Shown in pieces: positions 8,238-33,297 of a stretch of DNA of 64,000 bases. Origin of the DNA: Sulfobacillus thermosulfidooxidans DSM 9293. GTDB taxonomy: Bacteria > Bacillota > Sulfobacillia > Sulfobacillales > Sulfobacillaceae. Position 1 is the stretch's first letter. Each line of letters opens with the position of its first letter. The notes beneath the pieces are model-generated. The model had not been told where the DNA came from. It ran no database searches and saw only the letters and a program-made list of their open reading frames with translations. The DNA lies in the NCBI RefSeq assembly GCF_900176145.1, contig NZ_FWWY01000001.1, positions 3,019,011 to 3,083,010 of the forward strand, written 5' to 3'. Position numbers and translations under genes: made by a program.

Positions 8238-9188
8238 ATGATTTCGACAAGGGTGACTCAACAATGGCATTTACGGTATCCCGTGATTTCAGCTCCCATG
8301 TTGGGGGTGTCAGGGGGCGCATTGGCGTCTTCGGTAAGTTCTGCGGGTGGCTTGGGGATGATTGCCGTAGGACCGGCCCAGGATGGCCATTGGATAAAAA
8401 GTGAAGTGGCAAAGATCGCACCGGGCCTACATTTTGGTGTGGGTTTTATTGAATGGGATGTGGCACGCCGTCCACAAATATTGGAGGAGACGTTAAGCCT
8501 TCAGCCCTTTTTGGTTTCGATTTCCTTTGGGTCCGTAAAACCGTACGTACATCGCGTCCATGAGGCTGGAGCACTTGTTGTCACGCAAGTGAACAGTCTT
8601 GAGGATGCCCGCAGCGCCGAAGAATGCGGAGTCGATGCGGTAGTGATTCAGGGGCGAGAAGCCGGAGGACACACAGGCGAATTATCGACTCTTACACTCT
8701 TGCAGAGTGTTGTTCCGATAATGCACATTCCCGTCTTGGCGGCTGGAGGCATTGCGACGCCTCAAGGCATTTGTGCGGCTTTAATGGCGGGTGCTGAAGG
8801 AGTCTGGATGGGAACCCGGTTTGAAGCGTGCCACGAATCACTGTTAGTCGATCGTATCATCTCGCGTCTAATCGAAAGCCATGCGGAAGATACCGTGATA
8901 ACCCGTCTTTATGACCAAATCCTTCACGCTCCCTGGCCATCCAAATATCCCGGGCGGGTCGTGAGTAACCAGTTTGTTCGTCGCTGGTTATCTCAAGAGA
9001 TTACAGATGATGCGGCAAAGGAATTAACGGAAGGCGTACAGGCTTATGATCCCGATACAATTCCGATTTATGCCGGTGAAAGTGTGCAATTTGTTCAAGA
9101 CCGCGAATCGGCTCACCATGTTGTTGTCCAGTTGATGCAACAAGCCGAAGCATGGTGGAAGGAACGGAGCCAGGTCATATCAAGCTAA
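8238..9188 (+). CDS. Nitronate monooxygenase (2-nitropropane dioxygenase family)
   Basis: 316 residues forming an FMN-binding TIM barrel. Diagnostic features are PVISAPMLGVSGGALASSVSSAGGLG at the N-terminus (residues ~15-40), QGREAGGHTG with the conserved catalytic His145, and the phosphate-binding LAAGGIATPQG and AGAEGVWMGTRF motifs. The family oxidises propionate 3-nitronate and other nitronates with FMN and O2; some members act as enoyl reductases, so the substrate is open. AAAGGAGG 10 bases before ATG 8238 fixes the start. It is monocistronic, ending in a hairpin that includes its stop codon. Confidence 0.88.
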   Translation: MISTRVTQQWHLRYPVISAPMLGVSGGALASSVSSAGGLGMIAVGPAQDGHWIKSEVAKIAPGLHFGVGFIEWDVARRPQILEETLSLQPFLVSISFGSVKPYVHRVHEAGALVVTQVNSLEDARSAEECGVDAVVIQGREAGGHTGELSTLTLLQSVVPIMHIPVLAAGGIATPQGICAALMAGAEGVWMGTRFEACHESLLVDRIISRLIESHAEDTVITRLYDQILHAPWPSKYPGRVVSNQFVRRWLSQEITDDAAKELTEGVQAYDPDTIPIYAGESVQFVQDRESAHHVVVQLMQQAEAWWKERSQVISS

Positions 9189-9213
9189 ACAGCCAGTTCG
9201 GCCGTTTAGCTTG
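9181..9213. terminator. Bidirectional hairpin terminator
   Basis: CAAGCTAAAC (9181-9190) pairs perfectly with GTTTAGCTTG (9204-9213), with a further GCC/GGC inside the loop. It lies between two convergent genes and overlaps the stop codon of the nitronate monooxygenase. Confidence 0.7.
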
Positions 9214-9225
9214 TTGGCTGGAACG

Positions 9226-9489
9226 TTAAAGCGTGGCAGGCGGTTCACTGCCTGGAGGGCTTTGGCGTCTAGTGAGTTCTTGCTGGATCATATCAATCGC
9301 ATCATTGAGGGTATCACGACGGGCCGTTAAACGTCTCAACATGGATCTTAATGTAAAATCATCGAGTTTGCCTAGGGTGTCTTGTGAAAAGGACGCAAAG
9401 GGAATAAAGCGATGTAACAAATCCTGGATTCCTGCATCGAGCCGATCAAAATCAAAAATGGTGTCATCGTTAAACGTGAACTTCATCAC
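9226..9489 (-). CDS. Unknown 87-residue protein
   Basis: An AAGGAGGG site lies 6 bases before the ATG ATG start, so expression is well supported. The protein begins MMKFTFNDDTIFDFDRLD, continues with an amphipathic helical region and ends in a heptad-like helix (LRRLTARRDTLNDAIDMIQQEL) with a Pro-rich tail. It is probably a small soluble helical protein that oligomerises. No family was recognised. It stands alone, convergent with the nitronate monooxygenase. Confidence 0.65.
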   Translation of the reverse strand: MMKFTFNDDTIFDFDRLDAGIQDLLHRFIPFASFSQDTLGKLDDFTLRSMLRRLTARRDTLNDAIDMIQQELTRRQSPPGSEPPATL

Positions 9490-9555
9490 GATCCCTCCTT
9501 GAGATATCTCTCCCCAACACCTACGGTCTTATTGTATCATTCTGCCCATGAGAGG

Positions 9556-9777
9556 ATGGTGAGGATACCACTTTTTAGGCAGGAATCCTACGTGAACAGC
9601 GGCGATAGTGACTTTTCCCTGGGACAGTTAGCCGAACGATTCCTAGATGGCACTTATAAGCCAATTGACAACGCACTTCCTATACCTCGAGACGTAAAAA
9701 GATCAAAGGTCCATAAAGTGGTGAGAATGCTCGGATTACGGCTTCACAACGATTTGCTCCCGCTGCGGACCTACTGA
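9556..9777 (+). CDS. Possible small basic protein
   Basis: A 73-residue frame starting MVRIPLFRQESY and ending KVHKVVRMLGLRLHNDLLPLRTY. The composition is protein-like and basic at the C-terminus. However, the ribosome site is weak (AGAGG directly against the ATG), no family was recognised, and the last 42 bases run antisense through the end of purA. Treat it as doubtful. Confidence 0.25.
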   Translation: MVRIPLFRQESYVNSGDSDFSLGQLAERFLDGTYKPIDNALPIPRDVKRSKVHKVVRMLGLRLHNDLLPLRTY

Positions 9778-11016
9778 GATGTAGCGAATTTTCGTGTCAA
9801 TCAGTGCTTCAATTCTCTCTACATACTGCCTGGCGGTTTGAGGCAAATCCTCGTAATGTCGAATGTTGGTAATATCTGTTCTCCAGCCTGGCATCTCTTC
9901 GAACACAGGCTGTGCTTGGGAAAGTTCGGCCGTCGGAGGAAATTGTGTGATGGTATTATCATCTAGGGCATATGCGGTGGCAATGGGAATATTGTCAAGA
10001 TAACTTAAAACATCTAAATTCGTGAGGGCGACTTCCGTAGCGCCTTGGATCATGCACCCATAACGTGTGGCGACGGCATCGAACCATCCGACGCGCCGGG
10101 GACGTCCTGTGGTTGCCCCATACTCACCAGCATCGCCGCCTCGTGCCCGTAACACGTCTGCGTCTTGACCATGCAATTCAGTCACAAACGGCCCCGCTCC
10201 CACACAGGTCGAATAGGCTTTAGTGACGGCAATAATCCGGGTGATCGAATAGGGCGGAAGTCCCGCTCCGACACTGGCGAAGCCTGCCAATGGCGATGAG
10301 GATGTGGTGAAAGGATAGATTCCGTGATCAGGATCACGCAATGCGCCGAGTTGACCTTCTAACAAAATCGCTCGATTATTGTTTAAAGCTTCGTGAAGCA
10401 TCGACGTGGTATCACAAACATAAGGCGCTATGGCATCAGCATGATGTGATACGAGTTCGGTGATTTCATGGGGATCTTGAATCGGCAGTTGATAAGCCGT
10501 AGGCAATAAGAAATTTTTTAACGCTAAATTTCGCTCAATACGCTGTGCCAACCGATCTTTGACAAACAGGTCGGCGACTTGTACCCCAATTTTAAGAAAC
10601 TTATCCGCATAAAATGGGGCTATTCCTGAACGAGTGGAACCAAACTGATTGGCACCAAGACGCATTTCTTCAGCTTGGTCTAGTAACATATGAACAGGAA
10701 GAATGACTTGCGCCCGGTCGGAGATATGTAAATGGGAGGGAACAATTCCGCGGTCTTTAAGATTTTGCAATTCCTCGGCCAGTCCTATCGTATTTAACGC
10801 CACTCCCGGCCCGAGAACATTATGAACGTGCGGATAAAATACTCCCGACGGCAACATATGCAGAGCAAATTTTCCAAATTCATTTAGGATTGTATGACCT
10901 GCATTACTTCCTCCTTGGAAACGCACAACAAAATCCATATTCCGTGCTAAATAGTCGGTAATCTTGCCTTTTCCTTCATCGCCCCAATTAGCACCAACAA
11001 CAGCTGTGACGGTCAT
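9736..11016 (-). CDS. purA: Adenylosuccinate synthetase
   Basis: 426 residues, the normal PurA length. It catalyses GTP-dependent condensation of IMP with aspartate to adenylosuccinate, the first committed step to AMP. The P-loop GANWGDEGKGK (residues 8-18) carries the catalytic Asp; GGSNAGHT carries the catalytic His; QFGSTRSGIAPFYADK, TTGRPRRVGWFD and the C-terminal KIRYISVGPQREQ complete the family signature. The protein is cytosolic. It is monocistronic here, with no other purine gene nearby. No purine riboswitch was seen in the 500-base leader, though an A+T-rich stretch with TATACT-like boxes lies around 11055-11100. Confidence 0.95.
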   Translation of the reverse strand: MTVTAVVGANWGDEGKGKITDYLARNMDFVVRFQGGSNAGHTILNEFGKFALHMLPSGVFYPHVHNVLGPGVALNTIGLAEELQNLKDRGIVPSHLHISDRAQVILPVHMLLDQAEEMRLGANQFGSTRSGIAPFYADKFLKIGVQVADLFVKDRLAQRIERNLALKNFLLPTAYQLPIQDPHEITELVSHHADAIAPYVCDTTSMLHEALNNNRAILLEGQLGALRDPDHGIYPFTTSSSPLAGFASVGAGLPPYSITRIIAVTKAYSTCVGAGPFVTELHGQDADVLRARGGDAGEYGATTGRPRRVGWFDAVATRYGCMIQGATEVALTNLDVLSYLDNIPIATAYALDDNTITQFPPTAELSQAQPVFEEMPGWRTDITNIRHYEDLPQTARQYVERIEALIDTKIRYISVGPQREQIVVKP

Positions 11017-20005: not shown

Positions 20006-22516
20006 TTATGGATGTCCAAACACATTTTGAGGATCGAAATATTGTTTAAGTCGCTCGGTGATCTTGGTCAAGGATGAATCAGCAAGGTTGATCACCTGCC
20101 ACCCGTTGTGATTTAACACGCGGCACCCATTCAGGTGGAGTTGCTGAACTCCATTATCTGATGCTTCTGGTACAATCCATAAACTGTCATCGAGAGCGTG
20201 AAAAGCCGTCGTAATGGAATGGGGTAATGGTCCCACTCCAAATACATAACCTGAATGCTCACGTCGGGCTTGATCGAAGAGTGTGTCAAGTTTTGATTGT
20301 GTTACGGCAAGAATATCTAAGGCATCATGGCGTTGATATGAGATACCACCACGATCACATATCTGTTCAATGTATTGATGTTGACTCGGCAGATCATGTC
20401 CATCCACATAGATGGTAAGATGATTTCCCATAGTCCATAGGCCCTGGGGTCCTGGAGCAGTCGTTATGAAGGCATGGACCAAGGATTCATATTGCTCTGA
20501 ATTGATGTGCTGATGGTCTAGCGTATAAATGACCTGTTCGGGAAATTTGGGTAGTAAGCGCAAAATCAGCGTGGTAATCATACCAAATTGGCCCAAGGAG
20601 CCAATAAACAGTTTGGGCATGTCCAAACCCGCGACATTTTTCATAATCTTGCGACCGAACTGTAATTGCCGTCCAGTTCCGTCGATCACGCTCAGTCCAA
20701 GAATCCAGTTTTTTAAGGGGCCATATCCCAAATGTGCGAGGTGAGGCAGTCCTTCGGCAACTAAACTGCCCAAAGTTTGGTCTTTTTGTAGCGGAATTAC
20801 GGGAAACATCAGGCGGTATTGATCGAGAAAGGATTGAAGGGCCGTATAAGAAAGCCCAGCTTGCACGGTAATCGTCATGTTATCCGGGTCAAAATCAAGG
20901 ATATCTTGAAGATGACTCAGATTGACACGACACGCATCTTTATGAACCCCATGTTTGTCCAGGGTTAGGTGTATTTTCTGCACATAGGCTTGGCGGACGG
21001 TATCTCGCAGCTCATCGACAGAGCGAGGTTGAATAAGCCTATTAAGTGCTTGTTCTGGGCCCACATCGTGAGTGTAAGACGTGTTCTGAACCGGGTAAAC
21101 GGCCTTACCGGGATTTAAGATATTCTCGGGATCAAAGGCCATTTTAATGGCATACATGGCGGCTAATTCGTCGGGCGAATACATTAGAGGTAATTCGTGC
21201 AGTTTGTCAATGCCAATACCATGTTCTCCCGTAATGGATCCGCCTAGTTCCGCTGCCTTTTGCAAGATCGCATGGTCGGCCTTCCTCATACGTTCCACTT
21301 CGTCGGCATCATCCGGATGATATGGAATTAAGGGATGCAAATTACCATCTCCGGCATGGGCCACGGTGTTAATGGCCAACGCGTAACGGCGAGATATGGT
21401 CAGTACATGACTCATCATCTCTGCTAAGAGCGGCCGGGGAACGGTCACATCCTGGGTCCAGACATGAGAGGCAAGCCGTGCGGCGGCGCCATAAGCGGAG
21501 CGTCTAGCCGCCATCAATTGATGAGCATGTTCGGGGTTTTCGGCAATAATCACGGGATCGGCATGATATTGTTGTAACACGTTGACGAGATGCTGCAGTT
21601 GAGCTTGCACCGATAAGGGAGAACCGTCGACTTCAATCAGGAGCACAGCATCTGAATGGGGATATCCTGCGTCCATAAAGGGTCTGACAGTATCTAAGGT
21701 GGCTTTGTCTAATAGCTCTAGGGTAGAGGGAATCATTTGTGCCCGAACAATGCCGGAAACCGCCGAGACGGCATCAATTACCGACTGAAATCCCGCTAAT
21801 AGTGTTCCTGTACTAGGGGCTTTGGGTAATATTCGCAATGTTATTTCGGTAATGATAGCCAAAATGCCCTCAGAACCGGTTAACAAACCGGGCCAATCGA
21901 TAATCGACAAACTTTCTTGGCATATGATGGGGGTTCCGTCTGCGAGTAAAGCTTTTATTCCCGTAACGTAGTGGCTGGTTGTACCATATTTGACGCAGTG
22001 GGGACCGCCTGAGCCCTCTGAAACATTGCCGCCTAAAGTGGAAATCCGGTGACTCGCGGGATCGGGGGGGAAGAAGAAGCCATAAGGTTCTAATGCTTCC
22101 TGTAACCTGGCATTAACAACGCCCGGTTCCACACGCGTTTGACGTGATCGGACGTCAATGGATTTAATCCTTTTAAAATGCGTTAAAGAGACCACGATGC
22201 CTCCTGAAATGGGCAACGTGCCGCCACTGATGTTGCTGCCTGATCCTCGGGCAATAACGGGCATGCCATATTGGCTGGCAATTTGCAGTACATATCGCAA
22301 TTCCTCTTCGCTCTCGGCAATAAAGGCCGCATCAGGCCGATGTCGTTGCGAGGTCGCATCGTAACTATAAGCTAATAGGCGATCGGCATCGCGAATGATA
22401 CGATCACCAAAGCGCTGTGTGAGCGCACAAAGACATTCCTCTTTTTGCTGGGCATCTGGCCCAAGAATTTGATTATTGATGGGTTGGTGGGGAACAGTCG
22501 ATAAGGATACCAGCAT
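20006..22516 (-). CDS. GlcD-GlcE fused FAD-linked hydroxyacid dehydrogenase
   Basis: About 836 residues from ATG 22516 (GCGAGG seven bases upstream). The first ~470 residues are a complete GlcD-type FAD-linked oxidase: VIARGSGSNISGG FAD-binding loop, SEGSGGPHCVKYG, LTGSEGILAIITE, HAGDGNLHPLIPY, GSITGEHGIGIDKL and NPGKAVYP. The last ~340 are a GlcE-like FAD domain: VQAGLSYTALQSFL, GSLVAEG, VAGLDMPKLFIGSLG. GlcD and GlcE are normally separate subunits of glycolate oxidase with the Fe-S subunit GlcF. No GlcF adjoins this fusion. It heads a run with a sugar-acid kinase and a DapA-type aldolase. Confidence 0.88.
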   Translation of the reverse strand: MLVSLSTVPHQPINNQILGPDAQQKEECLCALTQRFGDRIIRDADRLLAYSYDATSQRHRPDAAFIAESEEELRYVLQIASQYGMPVIARGSGSNISGGTLPISGGIVVSLTHFKRIKSIDVRSRQTRVEPGVVNARLQEALEPYGFFFPPDPASHRISTLGGNVSEGSGGPHCVKYGTTSHYVTGIKALLADGTPIICQESLSIIDWPGLLTGSEGILAIITEITLRILPKAPSTGTLLAGFQSVIDAVSAVSGIVRAQMIPSTLELLDKATLDTVRPFMDAGYPHSDAVLLIEVDGSPLSVQAQLQHLVNVLQQYHADPVIIAENPEHAHQLMAARRSAYGAAARLASHVWTQDVTVPRPLLAEMMSHVLTISRRYALAINTVAHAGDGNLHPLIPYHPDDADEVERMRKADHAILQKAAELGGSITGEHGIGIDKLHELPLMYSPDELAAMYAIKMAFDPENILNPGKAVYPVQNTSYTHDVGPEQALNRLIQPRSVDELRDTVRQAYVQKIHLTLDKHGVHKDACRVNLSHLQDILDFDPDNMTITVQAGLSYTALQSFLDQYRLMFPVIPLQKDQTLGSLVAEGLPHLAHLGYGPLKNWILGLSVIDGTGRQLQFGRKIMKNVAGLDMPKLFIGSLGQFGMITTLILRLLPKFPEQVIYTLDHQHINSEQYESLVHAFITTAPGPQGLWTMGNHLTIYVDGHDLPSQHQYIEQICDRGGISYQRHDALDILAVTQSKLDTLFDQARREHSGYVFGVGPLPHSITTAFHALDDSLWIVPEASDNGVQQLHLNGCRVLNHNGWQVINLADSSLTKITERLKQYFDPQNVFGHP

Positions 22517-22590
22517 AATTTGGCCTCGCTTTAGCATCCGGTGACGCCTAATCAGGCGCACCATGCATCATTACTGAGAAAATCCATATG

Positions 22591-23196
22591 TCAACCACCC
22601 CGTCCGAAAGGCGGGCCCAGGATCTCGACTCCACTGCAATCCCAACAACCTGGCAAGCGCTTAGCTTTGGCTTCCGGGTCCGACCCATCAGGCGCGGTTG
22701 AAAAAAGTCCGTTCCCGATCCAGTCCTGCCGAATGTGGAGTGTTCGGAGCGTCATGTTACGAGCCCCTAGCAGATCGGCACCGAGGGTCACGGTACATTT
22801 TTGACAACGGAAAGTCAGTGCCTGGTCAGGGCGGTTCTTAGCATCACAATGAGGACAACCTTGGGCGGTGAACTTGGGATTCTTGTACCACTTCTGGCTA
22901 TAGCCGTTCTTTCGGTGCGGGGCATTTTGCTTGACTTCGGTCCACAACCTTTTGAAGGTGACTCCTACTTGTTTCGATACCGAACAAGCTAGTTGGGAAG
23001 GCAACGCAAAACGCTCCGGCAATTCTCGATAGACTAGTCCGTGGAGTTTCAACGGATTGGACATCTTCCCGTTCTCGAAGGTCACATGGCTCGGATAGTT
23101 GAGGGCGTTTTGATAGGCGTTGGCGGTGTCCCGGAGCCTTTGACCGGTCTCGCATGTCGTATGCAGTTTGAGCTTGGCGGTCAGCATTGTCTTCAC
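22591..23196 (-). pseudogene. IS605-type TnpB with large internal deletion
   Basis: 201 residues in one open frame. The start MLTAKLKLHTTCETGQRL and the helical segment to TEVKQNAPHRKNGYS match the N-terminal third of an IS605-type OrfB/TnpB. It then jumps directly to the C-terminal zinc ribbon (CPHC, CQKC) and TLGADLLGARNM. The middle, including RuvC Asp and Glu, is gone; a full protein would be about 370-400 residues. No tnpA accompanies it. It sits just upstream of the GlcD-GlcE gene and could have carried promoter-altering effects. The intact reading frame across the deletion is noteworthy. Confidence 0.75.
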
Positions 23197-23459: not shown

Positions 23460-23678
23460 CTAGGATTGTACGGCAATCCAGGTAAAGTCATCTATGTGCA
23501 CTTCACCCATGCCGTGACAAATTCGGCATACGCTATAGCCGCGGTGATCACAGTGTACACACCCTTCGCCTTCACATTCTTGACAAATGTCTTCACCATA
23601 GCCGAAACATTGCGTACATTCTTCCCAGATTGTCGGTGACGATTTAAGGAATAGGGATGGTCTTCTCGATTTCGACAT
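23460..23678 (-). CDS. Small DnaJ-type zinc-finger protein
   Basis: 72 residues with four CxxC pairs in DnaJ-like spacing: CTQCFGYG, CQECEGEG, CVHCDHRG and CRICHGMG, i.e. two zinc-binding sites of the CR-type domain without a J domain. GGAGG lies seven bases before the ATG. Proteins of this kind bind two zinc ions and often assist assembly or folding of a partner. The gene overlaps the end of the truncated PucR-type gene by 35 bases on the same strand. No partner is evident here. Confidence 0.7.
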   Translation of the reverse strand: MSKSRRPSLFLKSSPTIWEECTQCFGYGEDICQECEGEGCVHCDHRGYSVCRICHGMGEVHIDDFTWIAVQS

Positions 23679-23991
23679 TATCGTTTCCTCCGTTCTCTTG
23701 CATTCCGTTATGATAAAAGGCTAGGGCCAATCGTAAATCCGTGACGGTGTCTAAATTTTTGAGATCGCACCCCAGCAGTGCTTGCAATCGTGCTAACCGG
23801 TATGCCAATGTATTCCGGTGCACATAAAGACGTTTCGCTGCTTCTTGTGCCTGACCGTTACTGTCGAGGTAGACCTTCAAGGTCCATAGCAAATCGCGGT
23901 TATAAGTTCGGTCTTCCAATAAGGCTCCTAATTTCTCTTTGACAAATGTGGACTGCACAGATGCTGGGATCGCATCAAACAAACGTGACAA
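23644..23991 (-). pseudogene. PucR/CdaR-family regulator, C-terminal HTH only
   Basis: 115 residues from a TTG that has AAAGGAGG nine bases upstream. DLLWTLKVYLDSNGQAQEAAKRLYVHRNTLAYRLARL is the PucR C-terminal helix-turn-helix, with the usual preceding FVKEKLGALLE helix. Full PucR/CdaR activators are ~400-550 residues with N-terminal sensory and GGDEF-like domains; none is found upstream. It is either a decayed remnant or a stand-alone DNA-binding protein that kept a usable start. CdaR-type regulators often control sugar-diacid and glycolate genes, fitting the surroundings. Confidence 0.6.
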
Positions 23992-25100
23992 CGACCATAA
24001 CCTCCTTTACCACTTACATCTTCTACATCTTTGGGTGATATCAAGCTGACCGGGATTACATGCCGAGATACAGCCTTTGAGACGGGACCCCCATCCTGCC
24101 ATGTGAAAGATAATCTGTCTCGGTCATTGAAATTTATCTTCAGCAATCAACGGTTTTGTAATACTGGATTTCTACGGTTTGCAATTTGAGGATAGCATCA
24201 ACTGAATACATCGACTAATACAAAAATACGAAAGTATTTATAACAACTTCGTGATACGTATAGGTTCTGTCCGGGACAAAACCTATTTTAAAAGAGATAG
24301 AAAAATCCTCTTAGTCTTGGTGTTATAAGGATTTGCAAAGGATGACCATTCTTCTGACCATTCTTCTAATGATGGTTATCCCAAATAGTAGAGTCAATGC
24401 ATCGGAGAAGATGGTTTGGTGATATAAAGAGACTTTGTCGAGCGTTGGATTTCATTTTTTGATGGAGCATGGAATGGTGCTATACGGATATATTTCCTAA
24501 AACTTATAGTTCGTTTTGTATTTTGGTATTAGTCACCAGGTTGTAGGGATGGTACGCTGACTATGCAGTTACATTTCTCTCAATCAGACAGAGGAGAGGG
24601 ATATCATCAATTCGCATAGGAGTATCGCAAGGGTTTGGGGGAAATTATCTTCTAATAACCCCGAGGAAGATGTGAGCCGCATAAATATTGGCCGAATATT
24701 CGAAACCAACGCAATGATAGGAAAGATTGTGTTGGCGTAATTCTTAAACCCGGACCACAACCTCGGATTAACGGCCATGTTAACGTTAATACCGTACGAA
24801 GGAGCTTTGTGTGACAACGTGGTTATCGATGATAATGACAATGCTCATCGCGGTTTGGGTAGGGAAACGGTCTCTTGCTATGGGCTTGCACGCGCATATA
24901 TCTAGCTAATTACGACACGCTTTAAGACCTTGCTGTAGGCTACATCAATAGAAAACACCTCAACTTTCTCGTTTCATGAGCCGGAGGTGCCCCGGTTCCA
25001 TCATTACACGATCAGAACACGATCAGAGCCGCTTTTTTATAGCCAGCGGCTAGGGTATGATGGATTAAAATCTTGCGAGATAGCAATAAGGGGATTAGGG
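23992..25100. other. Long A+T-rich intergenic region
   Basis: About 1.1 kb without a credible gene. It contains a 25-base palindrome (24261-24285) and a short tandem repeat of GACCATTCTTCT near 24344-24368. It presumably holds the promoter of the IclR gene, whose leader carries AAGGGG. The rest may be debris of the lost PucR N-terminus, but I could not find matching protein sequence. Confidence 0.35.
24261..24285. repeat. Imperfect palindrome, possible operator or IS end
   Basis: TAGGTT-C-TGTCC is mirrored by GGACA-A-AACCTA around a central G, an 11-base-pair dyad. It could be an operator for the nearby IclR/PucR-type regulators or a relic transposon end; nothing decides between them. Confidence 0.35.
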
Positions 25101-25907
25101 GTGAGTTTGGTGGGACTAGGGGCACTCCCTCCCGAATCAGACGGGCAAGTTCGGGTGCAGTCGGTGGAACGGGCGTTTCGATTATTGGAAAAATTAGTGC
25201 GACACAACGAAATGTCCCTTGGGCAATTGGCTGACTCGGTTGGTATGCATAAAAGTACGGCTTACCGGTTGTTGCATACATTAATGGAGCTCGGTTACGT
25301 GGAGCAAGATGGAGAACAAGGCAGTTATCGTGTCGGCATTCGCATGGTGGAAATGGGAGGACTCGCCACCCGGTCATGGCCCCTGCACCGGGCGGCTGAA
25401 CCAGTGATGGACCAACTGGCGGAAACGCTGGGGGAAGCGGTCAATCTGGCGGTGGAAGACGGACTGAACATGGTCTATATCGCCACCGTGGATGCTTACA
25501 ATCTTTTGCGGATGCAATTAAACGTCGGTCGTCGGGCGCCGATTCATTGTACGGCAGTGGGGAAAGCTCTGTTGGCATTTAGACCGGAACTGGTGCAGCG
25601 GATGAAGGAAAAACATCCTCAGCTGACCCCGTTTACCGATCATACCATTACTGACTGGGATGCCTTAGAGGATGAACTGGCTCTAGTGCGCCAACTTGGA
25701 TTTGCGATTGATGACGAGGAACAAGAAGTGGGGGCTCGCTGCGTTGCCTCGCCAATTGTGGACCACCGTAATCATATCGTGGCGTCTATCGGCATATCGG
25801 CGCCGACGGCACGGTTGTCGCGGGAACGGGCGATGGAAGTGGGTCCGGAGATTGTAAAAGCCGCACAACAAGTGTCTGAACGGCTAGGCTACTTGAGGAA
25901 AAAATAA
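25101..25907 (+). CDS. IclR-family transcription regulator
   Basis: 268 residues from GTG 25101 (AAGGGG about 8 bases upstream); an in-frame extension to 24987 has no ribosome site. The N-terminal winged helix is visible in VERAFRLLEKLVRHNEMSLGQLADSVGMHKSTAYRLLHTLMELGYV. The C-terminal IclR effector domain has LHRAAEPVMDQLAETLGEAVNLAV, PIHCTAVGKALLA and AIDDEEQEVGARCVASPI. Family members (e.g. AllR) often control glyoxylate and allantoin genes. It lies 100 bases upstream of glcF in the same direction and is the likely cluster regulator. Confidence 0.92.
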   Translation: MSLVGLGALPPESDGQVRVQSVERAFRLLEKLVRHNEMSLGQLADSVGMHKSTAYRLLHTLMELGYVEQDGEQGSYRVGIRMVEMGGLATRSWPLHRAAEPVMDQLAETLGEAVNLAVEDGLNMVYIATVDAYNLLRMQLNVGRRAPIHCTAVGKALLAFRPELVQRMKEKHPQLTPFTDHTITDWDALEDELALVRQLGFAIDDEEQEVGARCVASPIVDHRNHIVASIGISAPTARLSRERAMEVGPEIVKAAQQVSERLGYLRKK

Positions 25908-26006: not shown

Positions 26007-27266
26007 GTGGATACGGGCCAGTGTGTGCACTGTGGATTGTGCTTATCGGCTTGTCCGACTTATCAAATAACGGGAATGGAAGCCGAATCGCCGCGTGGGC
26101 GAGTGTTCTTGCTTGAACACATTCGGGACAATCCGAGTCTGCTCAATCCTGATGCCATGCAGTATTTGGATGACTGTTTGGATTGCCGGGCCTGCGAGTC
26201 GGTCTGTCCCTCCCATGTCGCGACGGGACATATGGTCGAGACGTGGCGGGCACAAACGGCTCCAATTCTCGGAGACCGGGGACCTGAAGCTATGCGCTTA
26301 TTTCGCCGGTTGGCACGGCCTATGACGTTTTTGCTCGGATCACCAGCCGGATTGCGATGGTTTCAGCGGCTGGTCCGCTTAAGTCAAAAACCCGGCGTCA
26401 GGGCGTTGATTGCACGCCTTCGTCTTATGCCTCCGGCCGTGATGACGCTTGCCCGAGGCGTGCCAGTTCGGTTGCCGCGACGCTTGAGCCGGATTAGACC
26501 AGTGTCCCAAAGGGCGATTGCCACCCGGAAGGTGATGTTGTTTGTCGGATGCATCATGGATGCGGTGTATGCCGACACCAATCGTCATACCCAAGACCTG
26601 CTAGAAATGGGCGGCGTCCGGGTGGTCATTCCCCAAGAGCAGCGTTGTTGCGGGGCGCTTCACATGCATGGTGGCGTCCCCGAAGTCACCCGGCAATGGG
26701 CCCGCGAAAATATTCGAGCTTTTGAGGAGTCGGGCGCTGATGCGGTCGTGGTAAATGCAGCCGGATGCGGCGCAATGTTGAAAGAGTATGCCGAACTCTT
26801 TCCTCCGTCCGATTCCTGGCATGAACGGGCACGGCGGTTTCAAGACGCGGTGGTGGACGCGACGGTCGTGCTTGCCGATTTGCCGTTGCCCCAGGAGAAG
26901 CCTGGCCCGGAACGGGTGACGGTACACGATCCGTGTCATTTGGCCCATGCCCAAGGCATCCGCCAGCAACCACGGGAACTCTTGCGACGGGCCGGATACG
27001 CCATTTTGGAGATGCCGGATTCCGATCGTTGTTGCGGATCGGCGGGGATTTATAACCTGACGCATCCGGACATGGCGCAAAAATTGCTCGAACGAAAACT
27101 CGAAGATATCCCCCCAGGTGTAAAGTGGGTCGCGGCTGCCAACCCTGGATGTCTTATGCATATCCAATCCGGTCTTCAACGGGGGACAGAGAGGCCGTCC
27201 GCGGTTCATCCGGTTGATTTGGTGTGGCATGCGTATCAACGAGCGGGGTATCTGACACGGGATTGA
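26007..27266 (+). CDS. glcF: Glycolate oxidase iron-sulfur subunit
   Basis: 419 residues from GTG 26007 (GGAAGGGGG upstream). Two [4Fe-4S] ferredoxin motifs are present: CVHCGLCLSACP (residues ~6-17) and CLDCRACESVCP (~53-64). Two CCG domains follow: VGCIMDAVY...RCCGALHMHGG and DPCHLAHAQG...DRCCGSAGIYN. GlcF passes electrons from the GlcD flavin to the membrane quinone pool. It is the first gene of the glyoxylate cluster; glcE and glcD come at the end, an unusual split order. Confidence 0.93.
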   Translation: MDTGQCVHCGLCLSACPTYQITGMEAESPRGRVFLLEHIRDNPSLLNPDAMQYLDDCLDCRACESVCPSHVATGHMVETWRAQTAPILGDRGPEAMRLFRRLARPMTFLLGSPAGLRWFQRLVRLSQKPGVRALIARLRLMPPAVMTLARGVPVRLPRRLSRIRPVSQRAIATRKVMLFVGCIMDAVYADTNRHTQDLLEMGGVRVVIPQEQRCCGALHMHGGVPEVTRQWARENIRAFEESGADAVVVNAAGCGAMLKEYAELFPPSDSWHERARRFQDAVVDATVVLADLPLPQEKPGPERVTVHDPCHLAHAQGIRQQPRELLRRAGYAILEMPDSDRCCGSAGIYNLTHPDMAQKLLERKLEDIPPGVKWVAAANPGCLMHIQSGLQRGTERPSAVHPVDLVWHAYQRAGYLTRD

Positions 27267-27303: not shown

Positions 27304-29052
27304 ATGCGGAAAATGCCGGCAATGGACGCGGTGGTCTCAATTTTAATCGATGAAGGGGTTGAGACCGTTTTCGGGATTCCGGGTGCGGCGATATTACCTC
27401 TTTATCAATCCTTATCGAAGGTTTCAGACCGTATTCAATCGGTCACCGCCCGACATGAGGAAGGAGCGACCCATATGGCCGATGGATGGGCGCGGATCAC
27501 TGGCCGGGTGGGCGTAGCCATTGGCACCTCCGGGCCCGCGGGAACCAACATGGTAACCGGAGTGTATACGGCGTGGGCTGACTCCATACCCATGATCACG
27601 ATTACTGGCCAGGTGCCGCGGTCACAATTACACCGTGAAGGGTTTCAAGCAGTCGATATCGTCAATATCGTCAAACCCGTGGTGAAGAAAAGTTTTTTGG
27701 TCATGGAGCCGGCCCAGATTCCCTGGGTGTTTCGTGAGGCCTTCCGAATTGCCCGCGAAGGCCGACCGGGTCCGGTGCATATTGATTTGCCACTTGACGT
27801 GCAAAAGGCGGAAATTCTCTATGATCCGTCGATTGACCAGTCGTTGCCAGTCTTTCGCACACCACCAAATCCGGCAGCTATTCGCCGCGCCGTTGACCTA
27901 TTACTTCAAGCCCGGCGGCCTCTCATTTTAGCCGGTGGCGGGGTCATCACTGCCAAGGCGGAGAATCTTTTGCGCCAATTGGCCGAATATCTTCAAATTC
28001 CCGTTTCGCCGACGTTAATGGCATGGGGAGTGATTCCCGCCGATCATCCGTTGGCCGTCGGCACCGTGGGCATTCAGACCCACACGCGGTCAGCCAACCG
28101 CGTCTTTCTGGAATCTGATCTCGTGCTGGCGGTCGGGGCACGATTTGCGGAGCGTCACACGGGCGATCTGGCGATCTACACCCGAGACCGGCAATTTATT
28201 CAGATTGATGTCGATCCGGGGCAAATTGGACGCATTATCGAACCGACGCTGGGAATTGTGAGCGACGCCAAACTGGCCTTGGGGGCGTTATTGACCGAAG
28301 TTCGTGACCGGGTTTCTCCGCAGAGTCCCAGTGATTGGGTAGACCGTGTGCAGGTGCTCCGGGATAGCTATGACCGAGTCATGGATATTGAAACGGTCCC
28401 CATTCATCCCGCACGCGTCTTTAAGGCAATCAATCTGTCTTTCGGTCCCGATACGGTGTTCACGACCGCCATTGGTCTGTATCAAATTTGGTCTGGACAG
28501 TTTCAACGCGTTTACCGGCCGCGTCACTATCTGGTGTGTGGTCAGGCAGGACCGTTAGGGTGGGAAATTCCGGCGGCCATCGGGGTAAAGTTGGCGCGCC
28601 CGCAACAAGAAGTGGTCGCGGTAGTCGGTGACTATTCCTTCGAATTTTTGGTAGAAGAGATTGCTGTAGCCGTCCAATATCGCATTCCTTTCGTGATGGT
28701 GATGCTTAACAACGGGTACCTGGGGCTGATTCGCCAGCCGTCCAAATATCAGTACCAAATGAATTATGGGGTGGATATCAGTTACGACCATAACGACGGG
28801 ATGGGCATGGATAATGTGGCCATGGTCGAGGCGATGGGCGGCCTAGGCCGGCGAGTGACCGCGCCCCATGAGCTAGAGCCAGCATTAGCTTGGGCGCGGC
28901 GGGAAGCCGAAGCACACCGATTGCCAGTCCTGGTGGAAGTTTTCATCCAGCGGGAAGCGGATGCCGCCATGGGCCCGGCGTTGGATCAGATCCGAGAATT
29001 TGGGCCGGTCATTGATCGTGAACCGGAACTCCTGACGCCCCAGAAGGAATAA
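27304..29052 (+). CDS. gcl: Glyoxylate carboligase (tartronate-semialdehyde synthase)
   Basis: 582 residues, aligning along its length with E. coli Gcl, which uses ThDP and FAD to join two glyoxylates into tartronate semialdehyde with loss of CO2. Shared marks: FGIPGAAILP, LGTSGPAGT-type loop (IGTSGPAGTNMVTGVY), FQAVDIVNIVKPV, RHTGDL, LGIVSDAK, CGQAGPLGWEIPAAIG, and the ThDP/Mg motif VVGDYSFEF...NNGYLGLIRQ. At the site of the Gcl hallmark Val51 (ARHVEGA) this protein has Glu52 (ARHEEGA), the standard ThDP-enzyme glutamate. Neighbours hyi and garR support the role. Acetolactate synthase is a weaker alternative. Confidence 0.88.
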   Translation: MRKMPAMDAVVSILIDEGVETVFGIPGAAILPLYQSLSKVSDRIQSVTARHEEGATHMADGWARITGRVGVAIGTSGPAGTNMVTGVYTAWADSIPMITITGQVPRSQLHREGFQAVDIVNIVKPVVKKSFLVMEPAQIPWVFREAFRIAREGRPGPVHIDLPLDVQKAEILYDPSIDQSLPVFRTPPNPAAIRRAVDLLLQARRPLILAGGGVITAKAENLLRQLAEYLQIPVSPTLMAWGVIPADHPLAVGTVGIQTHTRSANRVFLESDLVLAVGARFAERHTGDLAIYTRDRQFIQIDVDPGQIGRIIEPTLGIVSDAKLALGALLTEVRDRVSPQSPSDWVDRVQVLRDSYDRVMDIETVPIHPARVFKAINLSFGPDTVFTTAIGLYQIWSGQFQRVYRPRHYLVCGQAGPLGWEIPAAIGVKLARPQQEVVAVVGDYSFEFLVEEIAVAVQYRIPFVMVMLNNGYLGLIRQPSKYQYQMNYGVDISYDHNDGMGMDNVAMVEAMGGLGRRVTAPHELEPALAWARREAEAHRLPVLVEVFIQREADAAMGPALDQIREFGPVIDREPELLTPQKE

Positions 29053-29076: not shown

Positions 29077-29871
29077 ATGCTGAAATTTGCCGCGAATCTA
29101 ACGATGTTATATACCGATGTACCGTTTTTGGAGCGCTTCGGCCGGGCCCGGGTCTCCGGATTCGATGCCGTGGAATTTTTGTTCCCATATTCGGACGGGT
29201 TGGACGCAGTCACAACAGTTGCCCGGGAAGCGGCAGTGACCATTGCGCTGTTTAACTTGCCGGCCGGTGACTGGGAACACGGGGAACGTGGCATAGCGAT
29301 TTTGCCAGACCGCCGTGCGGAATTTCGTGCGGGGGTGGCGGAGGCCATCCGTTATGCAACGGCACTCGGTGTGCAGCGGTTAAATTGTCTAGCCGGCCGC
29401 CGACCGGACGATTTGCCAGAAGTTGAGGCTTGGGCTGTCTTGCGGGACAATGTGCGCTATGCGGCGGACGAGCTGGCTAAAGCTCATCTTACGCTGATGC
29501 TGGAGCCCATCAATCCGTACGATATTCCGGGATTTTTTCTTAACCGGACCTCAGAAGTGATTGATCTGATTCGCGAGGTCGGCCGGTCCAACATTCAGAT
29601 TCAATATGATATCTATCATCTGCAAAGGACGCAAGGGGAGATTATCGGAACATTCCGGACATTAAGGGAACATATCGGGCACATCCAAATTGCGGACAAT
29701 CCGGGTCGGCATCAGCCGGGAACCGGCGAGCTAAATTACAAGCGGATTTTTTCGGCCCTGGACGAGGCGGGGTATACCGGCTATATCGGACTAGAGTATA
29801 TTCCGCAGGGAAGAACCGAGGACAGTCTAGAGTGGTGGCGGCTTTATCAAAACGGACAATTTGCAGGGTAA
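29077..29871 (+). CDS. hyi: Hydroxypyruvate isomerase
   Basis: 264 residues with a GAGGAGG-type site before the ATG. It opens LKFAANLTMLYTDVPFLERFG and contains VEFLFPYSD, LMLEPINPYDIPGFFL and GHIQIADNPGRHQPGTGELNY, all classic Hyi features of the xylose-isomerase-like TIM barrel, with metal-binding Glu, Asp and His. It interconverts hydroxypyruvate and tartronate semialdehyde, the product of Gcl. It lies 24 bases after gcl and 9 before garR, in one operon. Cytosolic. Confidence 0.93.
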   Translation: MLKFAANLTMLYTDVPFLERFGRARVSGFDAVEFLFPYSDGLDAVTTVAREAAVTIALFNLPAGDWEHGERGIAILPDRRAEFRAGVAEAIRYATALGVQRLNCLAGRRPDDLPEVEAWAVLRDNVRYAADELAKAHLTLMLEPINPYDIPGFFLNRTSEVIDLIREVGRSNIQIQYDIYHLQRTQGEIIGTFRTLREHIGHIQIADNPGRHQPGTGELNYKRIFSALDEAGYTGYIGLEYIPQGRTEDSLEWWRLYQNGQFAG

Positions 29872-29880
29872 GGAGCGAAA

Positions 29881-30774
29881 ATGATGACAGAACCGCGAAT
29901 AGGGTTTATCGGACTAGGGATTATGGGAGCCCCGATGGCAATGAATCTGTTGCGGGCCGGATTTCCGCTCGCTGTACACAACCGAACCCGTGACAAAGAG
30001 ATGTCGTTGGTGTCGGAAGGCGCAGTGGCCGCAGACAGTCCGGCGGCCACTGCGGATGCTGCCGATGTCATTATCACCATGTTGCCTGACACGCCCGATG
30101 TCGAATCCGTTTATTTTGGGGCGAACGGAGTGTTTAACCGCGTACGGCCAGGACATCTACTGATTGATATGTCGACCGCCAGCCCAGCTATTGCCCGCCG
30201 GATCCATCAGGCGGCCGTGGAACGCGGTGCTGATAGTTTGGATGCCCCCGTCTCGGGCGGGGATATCGGGGCCAAGACGGGCACGTTATCCATTATGGTG
30301 GGCGGCAGTGTCGAGGCGTTTGAACGGGCCCGACCGATATTTCAGGCCATGGGGAAAAATATTGTGCACACCGGGGATGCTGGTGCTGGTCAGGTCACTA
30401 AGGCGTGTAACCAGATTGTCGTAGCCTTGACGATTGAGGCGGTTGGAGAGGCGCTGGTTTTGGCTAAAAAGTCAGGCGTGGATCCCGGCCGCGTACGACA
30501 AGCTTTGTTGGGCGGATTTGCTCAAAGTCGGGTATTGGACGTCCATGGTCAACGGGCGTTGGAGCAACGGTTCGAGCCGGGGTTTCGGGTCCAGCTGCAC
30601 CGAAAGGATTTGGCTATTGCTCTTCAGGCTGCCCAGCAACTCGACGTGTCGATTCCTTTAACAGCCACGGTTCACGATATGATGAACAGTCTGTTGGCGC
30701 AGGGGTTTGGCGATAAGGATCACTCCATCTTAATTTACGAACTGGCTCGGCGAGCGAATGTCGACATCGGGTAA
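29881..30774 (+). CDS. garR: Tartronate semialdehyde reductase
   Basis: 297 residues of the beta-hydroxyacid dehydrogenase family. The Rossmann motif is GFIGLGIMGAPMAMNLL; the substrate loop is DAPVSGGDIGAKTGTLSIMVGG; the catalytic Lys is in GAGQVTKACNQIVV; the C-terminal FRVQLHRKDLAIAL is also typical. It reduces tartronate semialdehyde to D-glycerate with NAD(P)H. It starts 10 bases after hyi with AAGGAG upstream. No glycerate kinase follows, so glycerate must be phosphorylated by an enzyme encoded elsewhere. Confidence 0.93.
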   Translation: MMTEPRIGFIGLGIMGAPMAMNLLRAGFPLAVHNRTRDKEMSLVSEGAVAADSPAATADAADVIITMLPDTPDVESVYFGANGVFNRVRPGHLLIDMSTASPAIARRIHQAAVERGADSLDAPVSGGDIGAKTGTLSIMVGGSVEAFERARPIFQAMGKNIVHTGDAGAGQVTKACNQIVVALTIEAVGEALVLAKKSGVDPGRVRQALLGGFAQSRVLDVHGQRALEQRFEPGFRVQLHRKDLAIALQAAQQLDVSIPLTATVHDMMNSLLAQGFGDKDHSILIYELARRANVDIG

Positions 30775-30792: not shown

Positions 30793-31845
30793 GTGGAATT
30801 AACAGCAGCAATGGAAGAACGGGAAGCGGCGTTAATGGCTCGCTTTGCCGAGGCAAAACGACATGATTACCGTATACGCGTGCTCGGACGGGGATTTCGT
30901 ATCCGCTCTAGCCAGAGTGCGGCGACTGAAGAGATCGTATCATTGGCAAACTGGGACCGCGTGGTGGCCTACCAGCCAGCCGATCTGGTGGTAACCGTTG
31001 AAGCCGGGATGACGATTTCCGCATTAAATGATCATCTGGCGGCTTGCAGTCAATGGATTCCACTGACCATGGCCGATGGCTTTGATGATACGATCGGCGG
31101 CGTGGTGGCGGCCGGCCTTGACGGTATCTGGCGGGGCGGATATGGTCCCTTCCGCGATCGCGTGCTCGGTCTTCGGGTGCTGACCCCCGGGTTTGGGGCG
31201 ATAGAGGCCGGGGCCCATGTGGTGAAAAATGTGGCGGGGTACAACTTGCCCCGGTTGTTTCTCGGCTCCCGTGGCGTTTTCGGGGTGATTACGCGGGTTA
31301 CTTTGAAAGTTAGTCCGCGTCCTTCCGTCCGCCGCGTCTGGATTTGGAAGGGGGATTGGGAGACCCTAAGTCGTCAGGCCGATCAATTATTGAACTGGGC
31401 TTCGCCGTGGGCTAGCATCCTCCTACTGAAAGAACCGGAGATGGACACATGGAAACTTTGGGCGGAGTGGCACGGGATTTCCAAGACAGTGGAGTTTTTG
31501 CAGCGGGAGGTGGGACCCGGGGCGGAGGATCTTCCCTGGTGGTCTTCACCTGGGTGGTTGGCACGCGATGTGACATTAAAAGGAGCAGTGCCGCGTCGGG
31601 TTATCGGCGATCTTATGCGTGTCTGGGAGGACGGCCCTTTGGCGGTGGAGTGGCAAAGCGGGGCCTTTTGGGGTGGCTTGCCGGCTAAAGACTGTCGCCG
31701 CATTATGCACTGGATTCGTGAACGTTTTGGTGGAGTCGAGGTGGTTTCCGGGCCGGATCTCGATGACGCGTCGAGGTCCCCGATCGTGACAGGACCCTGG
31801 CAACGATTGAAACAGGCGTATGATCCGGACGCCGTTTTAGTATAG
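30793..31845 (+). CDS. glcE: Glycolate oxidase FAD-binding subunit GlcE-like
   Basis: 350 residues from a GTG with AGGCGGGG upstream. The FAD-binding half has VVTVEAGMTISALNDHLAACSQWIPL, TIGGVVAAGLDG, AGAHVVKNVAGYNLPRLFLGSRGVFGVITRVTLKVSP, the normal GlcE pattern. The C-terminus LKQAYDPDAVLV is shortened; many GlcE end with a longer FNPGG-type tail. It lies 18 bases after garR and 12 before glcD and would complete the glycolate oxidase with GlcF and GlcD. Confidence 0.9.
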   Translation: MELTAAMEEREAALMARFAEAKRHDYRIRVLGRGFRIRSSQSAATEEIVSLANWDRVVAYQPADLVVTVEAGMTISALNDHLAACSQWIPLTMADGFDDTIGGVVAAGLDGIWRGGYGPFRDRVLGLRVLTPGFGAIEAGAHVVKNVAGYNLPRLFLGSRGVFGVITRVTLKVSPRPSVRRVWIWKGDWETLSRQADQLLNWASPWASILLLKEPEMDTWKLWAEWHGISKTVEFLQREVGPGAEDLPWWSSPGWLARDVTLKGAVPRRVIGDLMRVWEDGPLAVEWQSGAFWGGLPAKDCRRIMHWIRERFGGVEVVSGPDLDDASRSPIVTGPWQRLKQAYDPDAVLV

Positions 31846-31857
31846 GAGAGGACGACT

Positions 31858-33297
31858 ATGAATCGAGATCTGGATTGGATTGAGGAACTGAAAGCCATGG
31901 TGGGACCGGAATTCGTGTTAACCGACCCAATGGCCTTACTTCCCTACGCCTGCGATGGATATACTTTGTCGCAAGAAACCCCGCGAGCGGTAGTTTTGCC
32001 CCAAGAGACGGAACAGGTCGCCAACATCGTCCGGATTTTGCGGAGGGAGAGCATCCCCTTTTTGGCGCGTGGCGCTGGCACCAGTCTCTCCGGTGGGGCC
32101 ACCCCAGTAAACGGAGCCGTCATTTTGCATTTATCGCGGATGAACCGGATCTGGGAAATTGATCCGGAAAACCGCGTTGTGGTGGTAGATCCGGGCGTGG
32201 TCAACGCCGTCATTAGCCGCGTATTAGAGAGTCACGGCCACTTTTATGCGCCTGATCCCTCCTCACAACAGGCGTGTACCATCGGCGGAAATTTTGCGGA
32301 AAATTCCGGGGGACCGCATTGTTTGAAATATGGCGTTACCCTGAATCATATCGTGATGGCAGAAGTCGTGACGGTCGAGGGCGATGTGATGCGGCTCGGC
32401 AACCTAGCTGGTGAACCTGAAGGCATCGATTGGTTAGGGCTGATCATCGGCTCGGAAGGGACTTTGGTGATTGCCACAAAGCTCTGGCTCAGGATGACAC
32501 CAAAACCGGCGGCCAGTCAGACCGTGCTGGCCCTGTTCGATGACGTTGCCGAAGCCAGTCAGGCGGTGTCGGATATTGTAGCGGCCGGGGTGATTCCGGC
32601 GGCCTTGGAAATGATGGACCGGTTGGCGATTTATGCGGTTGAGCGCGGACCATACCCGGTGGGATATCCAGAAGACGTGGACGCGGTGTTGTTGATCGAG
32701 GTCGATGGGGAACGCCATGAAGTGGAAGAGACTGCTCGTCGGGTGGAGGCGGTGTTGCAAGCCCATAAGGTGCGCGCGGTCCGCTTAGCCGAGTCGGAAG
32801 CGGAGCGCAATCGGTGGTGGGCAAACCGGAAAACCGCTTTCGGGGCGATGGGCCTCATTTCCCCTCAATATTACGTTCAAGATGGGGTGATTCCCAGAAG
32901 CCGGCTGCCGGAAGCATTGGCTCGGATCGATACCATTGCCCGGCGCTACAATATCCGTATTGCCAACGTATTTCACGCTGGCGATGGTAATTTGCATCCT
33001 TTGTTGTTATATGACGGGAAAGATGCAGCCATGGTCGAACGGGTGAGGAAGGCCGGTTCGGAAATCCTGGCAGTCTGCGTGGAATTGGGTGGTAGCATTA
33101 CTGGCGAGCACGGAGTGGGCATCGAGAAGCGGGACGACATGATCAAACAATTCGGTCCCGGCGAATTGGCAGCTCAAGAGGCCGTGAAATACGCCTGGGA
33201 TCCGGTGGGACTTTTGAATCCGGGAAAGTTGCTGCCGACCGCGGCGGTGTGCCACGAAGCAATTCCCACGCCGTCCACCGAGACGGGCGGAAACTGA
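31858..33297 (+). CDS. glcD: Glycolate oxidase catalytic subunit GlcD
   Basis: 479 residues with AGGAGAGG before the ATG. FLARGAGTSLSGGATPVNG binds FAD pyrophosphate; PSSQQACTIGGNFAENSGGPHCLKYG, IIGSEGTLVIATKLWLRM, VFHAGDGNLHPLLLYDG and GSITGEHGVGIEKRDDM are the GlcD/D-lactate-dehydrogenase marks; the end GLLNPGKLLP is intact. It oxidises glycolate to glyoxylate, feeding Gcl. It is the last gene of the cluster. It resembles the first half of the fused protein at 20006-22516, giving two GlcD-type enzymes in one window. Confidence 0.93.
   Translation: MNRDLDWIEELKAMVGPEFVLTDPMALLPYACDGYTLSQETPRAVVLPQETEQVANIVRILRRESIPFLARGAGTSLSGGATPVNGAVILHLSRMNRIWEIDPENRVVVVDPGVVNAVISRVLESHGHFYAPDPSSQQACTIGGNFAENSGGPHCLKYGVTLNHIVMAEVVTVEGDVMRLGNLAGEPEGIDWLGLIIGSEGTLVIATKLWLRMTPKPAASQTVLALFDDVAEASQAVSDIVAAGVIPAALEMMDRLAIYAVERGPYPVGYPEDVDAVLLIEVDGERHEVEETARRVEAVLQAHKVRAVRLAESEAERNRWWANRKTAFGAMGLISPQYYVQDGVIPRSRLPEALARIDTIARRYNIRIANVFHAGDGNLHPLLLYDGKDAAMVERVRKAGSEILAVCVELGGSITGEHGVGIEKRDDMIKQFGPGELAAQEAVKYAWDPVGLLNPGKLLPTAAVCHEAIPTPSTETGGN

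Follow-up and report, generated by a model that had tools for sequence, protein, structure and literature searches.

A predicted glyoxylate carboligase of Sulfobacillus thermosulfidooxidans retains an ancestral glutamate that was replaced by valine in one nested clade

The window analyzed here, a 64,000-nucleotide stretch of the Sulfobacillus thermosulfidooxidans DSM 9293 genome, contains a same-strand gene cluster in the order IclR regulator, glcF, gcl, hyi, garR, glcE and glcD, with the following features:

24987..25907, + strand: IclR-family regulator ahead of the cluster; the start codon is uncertain, and domain homology sets in near residue 53
26007..27266, + strand: glcF-like glycolate oxidase iron-sulfur subunit; best family PRK11274, below the curated cut-off
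27304..29052, + strand: gcl, predicted Glu-type glyoxylate carboligase (tartronate-semialdehyde synthase), 582 aa; assigned by PDB matches, models and tree
27457..27459, + strand: GAG codon of Glu52, equivalent of E. coli Gcl Val51 and of the canonical ThDP-enzyme glutamate
27547..27549, + strand: codon of Asn82; Asp in all Val-type Gcl examined, Asn in all Glu-type Gcl and in the acetolactate synthase (ALS) outgroup
29077..29871, + strand: hyi, hydroxypyruvate isomerase; TIGR03234 over cut-off
29881..30774, + strand: garR/glxR, tartronate semialdehyde (2-hydroxy-3-oxopropionate) reductase; TIGR01505 over cut-off
30793..31845, + strand: glcE-like glycolate oxidase FAD-binding subunit; PRK11282, below cut-off
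31858..33297, + strand: glcD-like glycolate oxidase subunit; PRK11230/TIGR00387, below cut-off

The gcl reading frame starts with ATG, is free of stops over 582 codons and encodes the motif TARHEEGATHMADG. The genes hyi and garR, which the first-pass annotation had placed beside it, follow directly on its 3' side, each over the cut-off of its family model. Away from the cluster, the source genome also encodes two glycerate kinase homologues and a single malate synthase. The operon itself is already annotated in S. thermosulfidooxidans, with one of its genes named glcF (PMC5418355), and Sulfobacillus is described as degrading glycolic acid from primary producers such as Leptospirillum (PMC4378227).

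Several further genes lie near the cluster on the opposite strand. The product of the divergent gene at 20006-22564 (-) has 852 aa, with FAD_binding_4 in two stretches and a single FAD-oxidase_C domain, and resembles a GlcD-GlcE fusion. Adjoining the glycolate genes, a 201-aa remnant at 22591-23196 (-) with a TnpB/Cas12f1-like C-terminal nuclease domain (PF07282) is apparently a decayed transposon-associated gene. The 115-aa ORF at 23644-23991 (-) contains the PucR C-terminal helix-turn-helix only and is probably a truncated PucR or has a mis-set start; a pucR gene is listed for the published S. thermosulfidooxidans cluster (PMC5418355).

The best PDB matches of the window protein are the Gcl structures 8i05 and 2pan (577 and 576 bits, full length), compared with 318 bits for the acetolactate synthase 6lpi, about 260 bits lower, and with about 176 bits for oxalyl-CoA decarboxylases; no oxalyl-CoA decarboxylase model is found among the best 25 NCBIfam models. 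The protein scores above the cut-off of the Gcl equivalog PRK11269 (NF008431; 809 vs 791 bits) and below those of the Gcl equivalog TIGR01504 (645 vs 711 bits) and of the ALS model TIGR00118 (511 vs 538 bits). Judged by its ~47% identity to a solved structure, the fold of the protein is not in doubt. Gcl serves as the example of a ThDP enzyme that manages without an otherwise near-universal glutamate; the E. coli enzyme has Val in place of this canonical Glu, as Kaplun et al. reportedly established in 2008. In agreement with the first-pass annotation of a full-length Gcl-like protein with glutamate at this position, both the PDB alignments and the MAFFT alignment set Glu52 (GAG, 27457-27459) opposite Val51 of E. 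coli Gcl (LARHVEGASHMAEG).

The same residue is found in three further Sulfobacillia genomes, in four genes whose products are 72-88% identical to the window protein. By searching 398 Bacillota genomes at a threshold of E<=1e-120, we obtained matches in 13 genomes; all nine matches with at least 50% identity, the window protein included, carry ARHEEGA, and the remaining four, at ~40% identity, are ALS-like. Searches of 296 Actinomycetota genomes and of 346 genomes of one actinobacterial class yielded many more; of the 58 distinct actinobacterial sequences examined, 40 have Glu and 18 have Val, counts that describe the samples drawn and not natural frequencies. The actinobacterial Glu-type proteins are 56-64% identical to the window protein in 38 of 40 cases and 54% identical in the other two; the 18 Val-type proteins are 45-49% identical to it. 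Val was also found in 11 further actinobacterial sequences and in the copies from E. coli, Vibrio, Pseudomonas, Halomonas, Skermanella, Azospirillum, Sinorhizobium, Deinococcus and Mycobacterium, with Pseudomonadota sampled from plasmid-collection records only. Every Gcl-lineage protein examined from the sampled Bacillota and Sulfobacillia genomes has Glu, and no residue other than Glu or Val was seen at position 51/52 in the Gcl-lineage sequences examined. Because Glu52 is shared by other Sulfobacillia, actinobacterial and other Bacillota genes, it is not a sequencing error; this origin, like that of a chance oddity, is ruled out by five of five Sulfobacillia sequences and dozens of others.

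Family models capture the Glu-type proteins unevenly. Among the actinobacterial Glu-type proteins, L085 and L097 score above the cut-offs of both Gcl equivalogs of NCBI (TIGR01504: 717 and 823 bits); L041 and L045, from the basal Bacillota, fall below both Gcl cut-offs and above that of the ALS model TIGR00118. The first-pass annotation had named the existence of many true Gcl proteins with Glu at this position as a refutation of its reading. This holds in part, at the level of the lineage, in which many members carry Glu and some pass both equivalogs; all of them are known as predicted Gcl from sequence. Glu-type Gcl is common once looked for, and it narrows the published Val51 criterion for the family.

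Three loci from these searches deserve separate mention. Besides the orthologue in L103, Sulfobacillus benefaciens AMDSBA1 (G400) has another Glu-type gcl copy, a paralogue whose product is 72-73% identical to that of the window gene; it lies at 8427-10166 (-) of locus L102 in a rearranged cluster glcD-glcF-glcE-garR-hyi-gcl. The garR homology in L103 (6918-7794, -) is split into two overlapping blocks, 6918-7172 and 7162-7794, which suggests either a frameshift in a metagenome-assembled genome or a broken gene. In Bacillota family f95, a glcD-glcF-IclR-ThDP enzyme cluster (L048, 231-5762; same region as L018) encodes a ThDP enzyme with 41% identity to the window protein and the motif RHEQTG, which branches between Gcl and ALS and is possibly another glyoxylate- or glycolate-linked carboligase.

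The phylogenetic tree was built in IQ-TREE under LG+C20 PMSF from 61 proteins, including ALS-like outgroups, with the residue-52 column removed. The Gcl lineage is split from the ALS outgroup by a branch with 100/99 support, and the window protein lies inside it, not among the acetolactate synthases, where the first-pass annotation would have seen its reading refuted. A Bacillota Glu group is basal in this lineage (100/100), and above it are found the Sulfobacillia, including the window protein (100/99), and the main actinobacterial Glu group. The Val-Gcl proteins form one nested clade (100/100) that comprises E. coli, Pseudomonas, Deinococcus, rhizobia and many actinobacteria, and its sister is the Glu-type pair L096/L097 (100/100). 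The Glu-type proteins are a grade, and a single Glu-type clade is rejected by the AU test (p-AU 0.00024, lnL difference 66); one Glu/Val change suffices over all rows of the tree. The main caveat on this tree is the length of its outgroup branches. A second tree with a smaller outgroup again shows the basal Bacillota group, the nested Val clade and, as sister of that clade, the Glu-type pair; the branching order of the Sulfobacillia and the main actinobacterial group fails there (SH-aLRT 11).

Since all outgroup rows have Glu, this residue is ancestral by parsimony even with the grade left aside. The Gcl lineage ancestrally had Glu, which the Glu-type proteins have kept; the change to Val took place a single time, in a clade nested within the lineage. 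Of the first-pass proposals, an ancestral state is borne out by Glu in the outgroups and in the basal Gcl-lineage branches, and a "restored" glutamate has to be abandoned, as the tree is without any sign of loss in this lineage. The well-known loss of the glutamate seems to have happened later and just once, in no more than a part of the Gcl family.

Comparison of residue signatures identified 36 positions that are common to Glu- and Val-type Gcl and rare in ALS, among them, in E. coli numbering, A28, E52, A79, E112, H285, L395, I398, L421, F451, L478 and I479; these place the Glu-type with Gcl rather than with ALS. The two types of Gcl are separated at 16 positions, and at many of these (51, 57, 59, 82, 150, 188, 459 and 486) the Glu-type has the commonest outgroup residue, in line with a derived Val-type. 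Glu51-to-Val is most clearly partnered by Asn82-to-Asp: within the motif SGPAGT(N/D), Asn82 is present in every Glu-type and Asp82 in every Val-type protein examined. This motif presumably lies close to the aminopyrimidine in ThDP-enzyme folds, so a coupled change at 51 and 82 is plausible; co-inheritance on a single branch by itself cannot show such coupling. The types also differ at E. coli N283, which is Glu283 in the window protein, and in the R484 region, both of which we take to be near the substrate. We tentatively propose, as a possibility that we consider rather less than even, that the glutamate loss was one concerted rewiring on a single branch, combining Glu51-to-Val, Asn82-to-Asp and a few nearby changes, in which the carboxylate near the cofactor was moved, not removed, so that Glu/Asn and Val/Asp enzymes of one family would carry out the same reaction by two distinct mechanisms.

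The functional assignment draws on conserved gene context. Both hyi and garR accompany gcl in all four other Sulfobacillia loci. In the f21 Bacillota, garR is beside gcl in four of four loci and hyi as well in three of them; in the other basal Bacillota loci, within the stretch read, garR is near in one of three and an IclR homologue alone is found in two of three. Among 17 Glu-type actinobacterial loci examined, 14 have both genes, L095 has hyi, and L096 and L097 have garR. An IclR regulator and a glycerate kinase homologue are often near gcl in the main actinobacterial group, and a glycerate kinase homologue adjoins the cluster in L040, L104 and L102. Because Glu-type genes stand beside hyi and/or garR in nearly all neighborhoods examined, tartronate-semialdehyde synthesis is their best-supported function. 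In Pseudomonas aeruginosa, the gcl-hyi-glxR-glxK genes constitute a glyoxylate-to-glycerate pathway that has been shown biochemically, with purified Gcl and GlxR active and the Gcl rate raised by Hyi (PMC12694930); the Gcl of this organism is of the Val-type (L107). Gcl is also abundant in 'Ca. Dichloromethanomonas elyunquensis' during growth on dichloroacetate via glyoxylate (PMC8092247), an observation that we do not count as evidence here. A search of the literature outside subscription papers found no kinetics or assay of a Glu-type Gcl and no mention of Glu in a natural Gcl.

An allantoate amidohydrolase homologue is located within ~10 kb of Glu-type gcl in the actinobacterial loci L083, L087, L088, L091, L092 and L093, which points to allantoin as a purine-derived source of glyoxylate there.

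Taken together, the window protein is very probably a ThDP-dependent glyoxylate carboligase (tartronate-semialdehyde synthase) of the Glu-type subgroup, for which we infer substrate, product, kinetics and the cofactor contact of Glu52. In the proposed pathway, glycolate would be converted to glyoxylate by the neighboring GlcDEF. Gcl would then add glyoxylate to ThDP, decarboxylate it and ligate the resulting enamine to a second glyoxylate, yielding tartronate semialdehyde, which GarR would reduce to glycerate and Hyi would interconvert with hydroxypyruvate. Glycerate could enter glycolysis via a glycerate kinase encoded elsewhere in the genome. Glu52 is predicted to contact N1' of the aminopyrimidine, unlike the Val51 arrangement of E. 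coli Gcl, and may favor the imino tautomer and loss of the C2 proton, as happens in acetohydroxyacid synthase. Some points speak against the assignment: the window protein falls short of TIGR01504, L041 and L045 score as ALS, and residues near the substrate differ. In addition, engineering V51E into E. coli Gcl reportedly lowers its overall performance, so the Glu-type enzymes must differ elsewhere.

The first-pass annotation had also considered a different specificity, such as that of an ALS-like carboligase; the protein would then condense pyruvate and have been recruited into a glyoxylate operon, with Glu52 as a mark of ALS. The canonical Glu is indeed shared with ALS, and the basal Bacillota relatives above the TIGR00118 cut-off fit such an origin, but the window protein groups with Gcl at 100/99, has the 36 Gcl-specific positions, matches Gcl structures ~260 bits better and belongs to a glycolate/glyoxylate operon whose hyi and garR are conserved beside its relatives. 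Besides its single Gcl, the source genome encodes a separate ALS-like protein (C1:81684-83270) with 35% identity to the window protein. We regard pyruvate condensation as very improbable. Identity as an ALS or an oxalyl-CoA decarboxylase was a candidate ruled out by tree, bit scores and signature residues.

A carboligase that uses glyoxylate with a different second substrate, either another aldehyde or a 2-oxoacid, would make the name Gcl half right. The likely active-site-near differences between the types (E. coli N283, the R484 region and N/D82) leave some room for it, as does a Glu-type specificity that is itself predicted; against it stands the retention of garR and hyi next to Glu-type genes in several lineages, since both act on the product of two joined glyoxylates and both also serve the Val-type Gcl of P. 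aeruginosa (PMC12694930). We consider this option unlikely. Reversion from a Val-type Gcl, with Glu lost and then regained, has only the high similarity to Val-type Gcl in its favor and is scarcely credible, given that one change explains all rows, the window protein lies outside the Val clade, the Glu-type L096/L097 is the sister of Val-Gcl, and Asn82 is likewise the ancestral state.

If the Glu-type glyoxylate carboligases catalyze the same reaction as the Val-type, valine is not required by the chemistry, and the missing glutamate would be a feature derived on one branch and not something that glyoxylate carboligation calls for. Natural Glu/Val pairs, including L096/L097 and Val-Gcl, offer a direct test of what was gained by the glutamate loss and of compensation by Asp82. 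A Val-based criterion or TIGR01504 would miss part of the Gcl lineage. The glycerate route can be added to models of glycolate use in Sulfobacillus.

The cluster in the legend of Fig. S2C of PMC5418355 contains pucR, IclR, glcF, gcl, hyi, glxR, glcE and glcD in the same listed order as in the window. In the available portion of that account, it is read as glycolate oxidase with a malate synthase outlet, and the active-site Glu and the glycerate route are both absent. With the acetohydroxyacid (acetolactate) synthases IlvB/IlvI, the window protein shares the ThDP fold, the canonical Glu and the SGPG(A/G)TN motif with Asn82; these enzymes differ from it in: i) RHEQ in place of RHEE and GPGG in place of GPGA, ii) mostly M/V in place of L478/I479 and Q in place of L395, and iii) their separate branch in the tree.

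A 2012 survey described the Val51 substitution as characteristic of the entire Gcl family (PMC3534367), and the window protein has Glu52 at this position. As a whole-family trait Val51 fails for the lineage sampled and fits one nested Val-type clade only, which makes the window protein a variant and not a classical Gcl member. E. coli Gcl (PDB 2PAN, EC 4.1.1.47) and the window protein are alike in ~47% identity over the full length, three ThDP-enzyme domains and the 36 Gcl-specific positions, and the hyi and garR neighbors of the window gene recall the Val-type clusters of Pseudomonas, Sinorhizobium and Deinococcus. In contrast to E. coli Gcl with its Val51/Asp82, the window protein has Glu52/Asn82, its gene clusters with glycolate oxidase genes, and it falls outside the Val-type clade.
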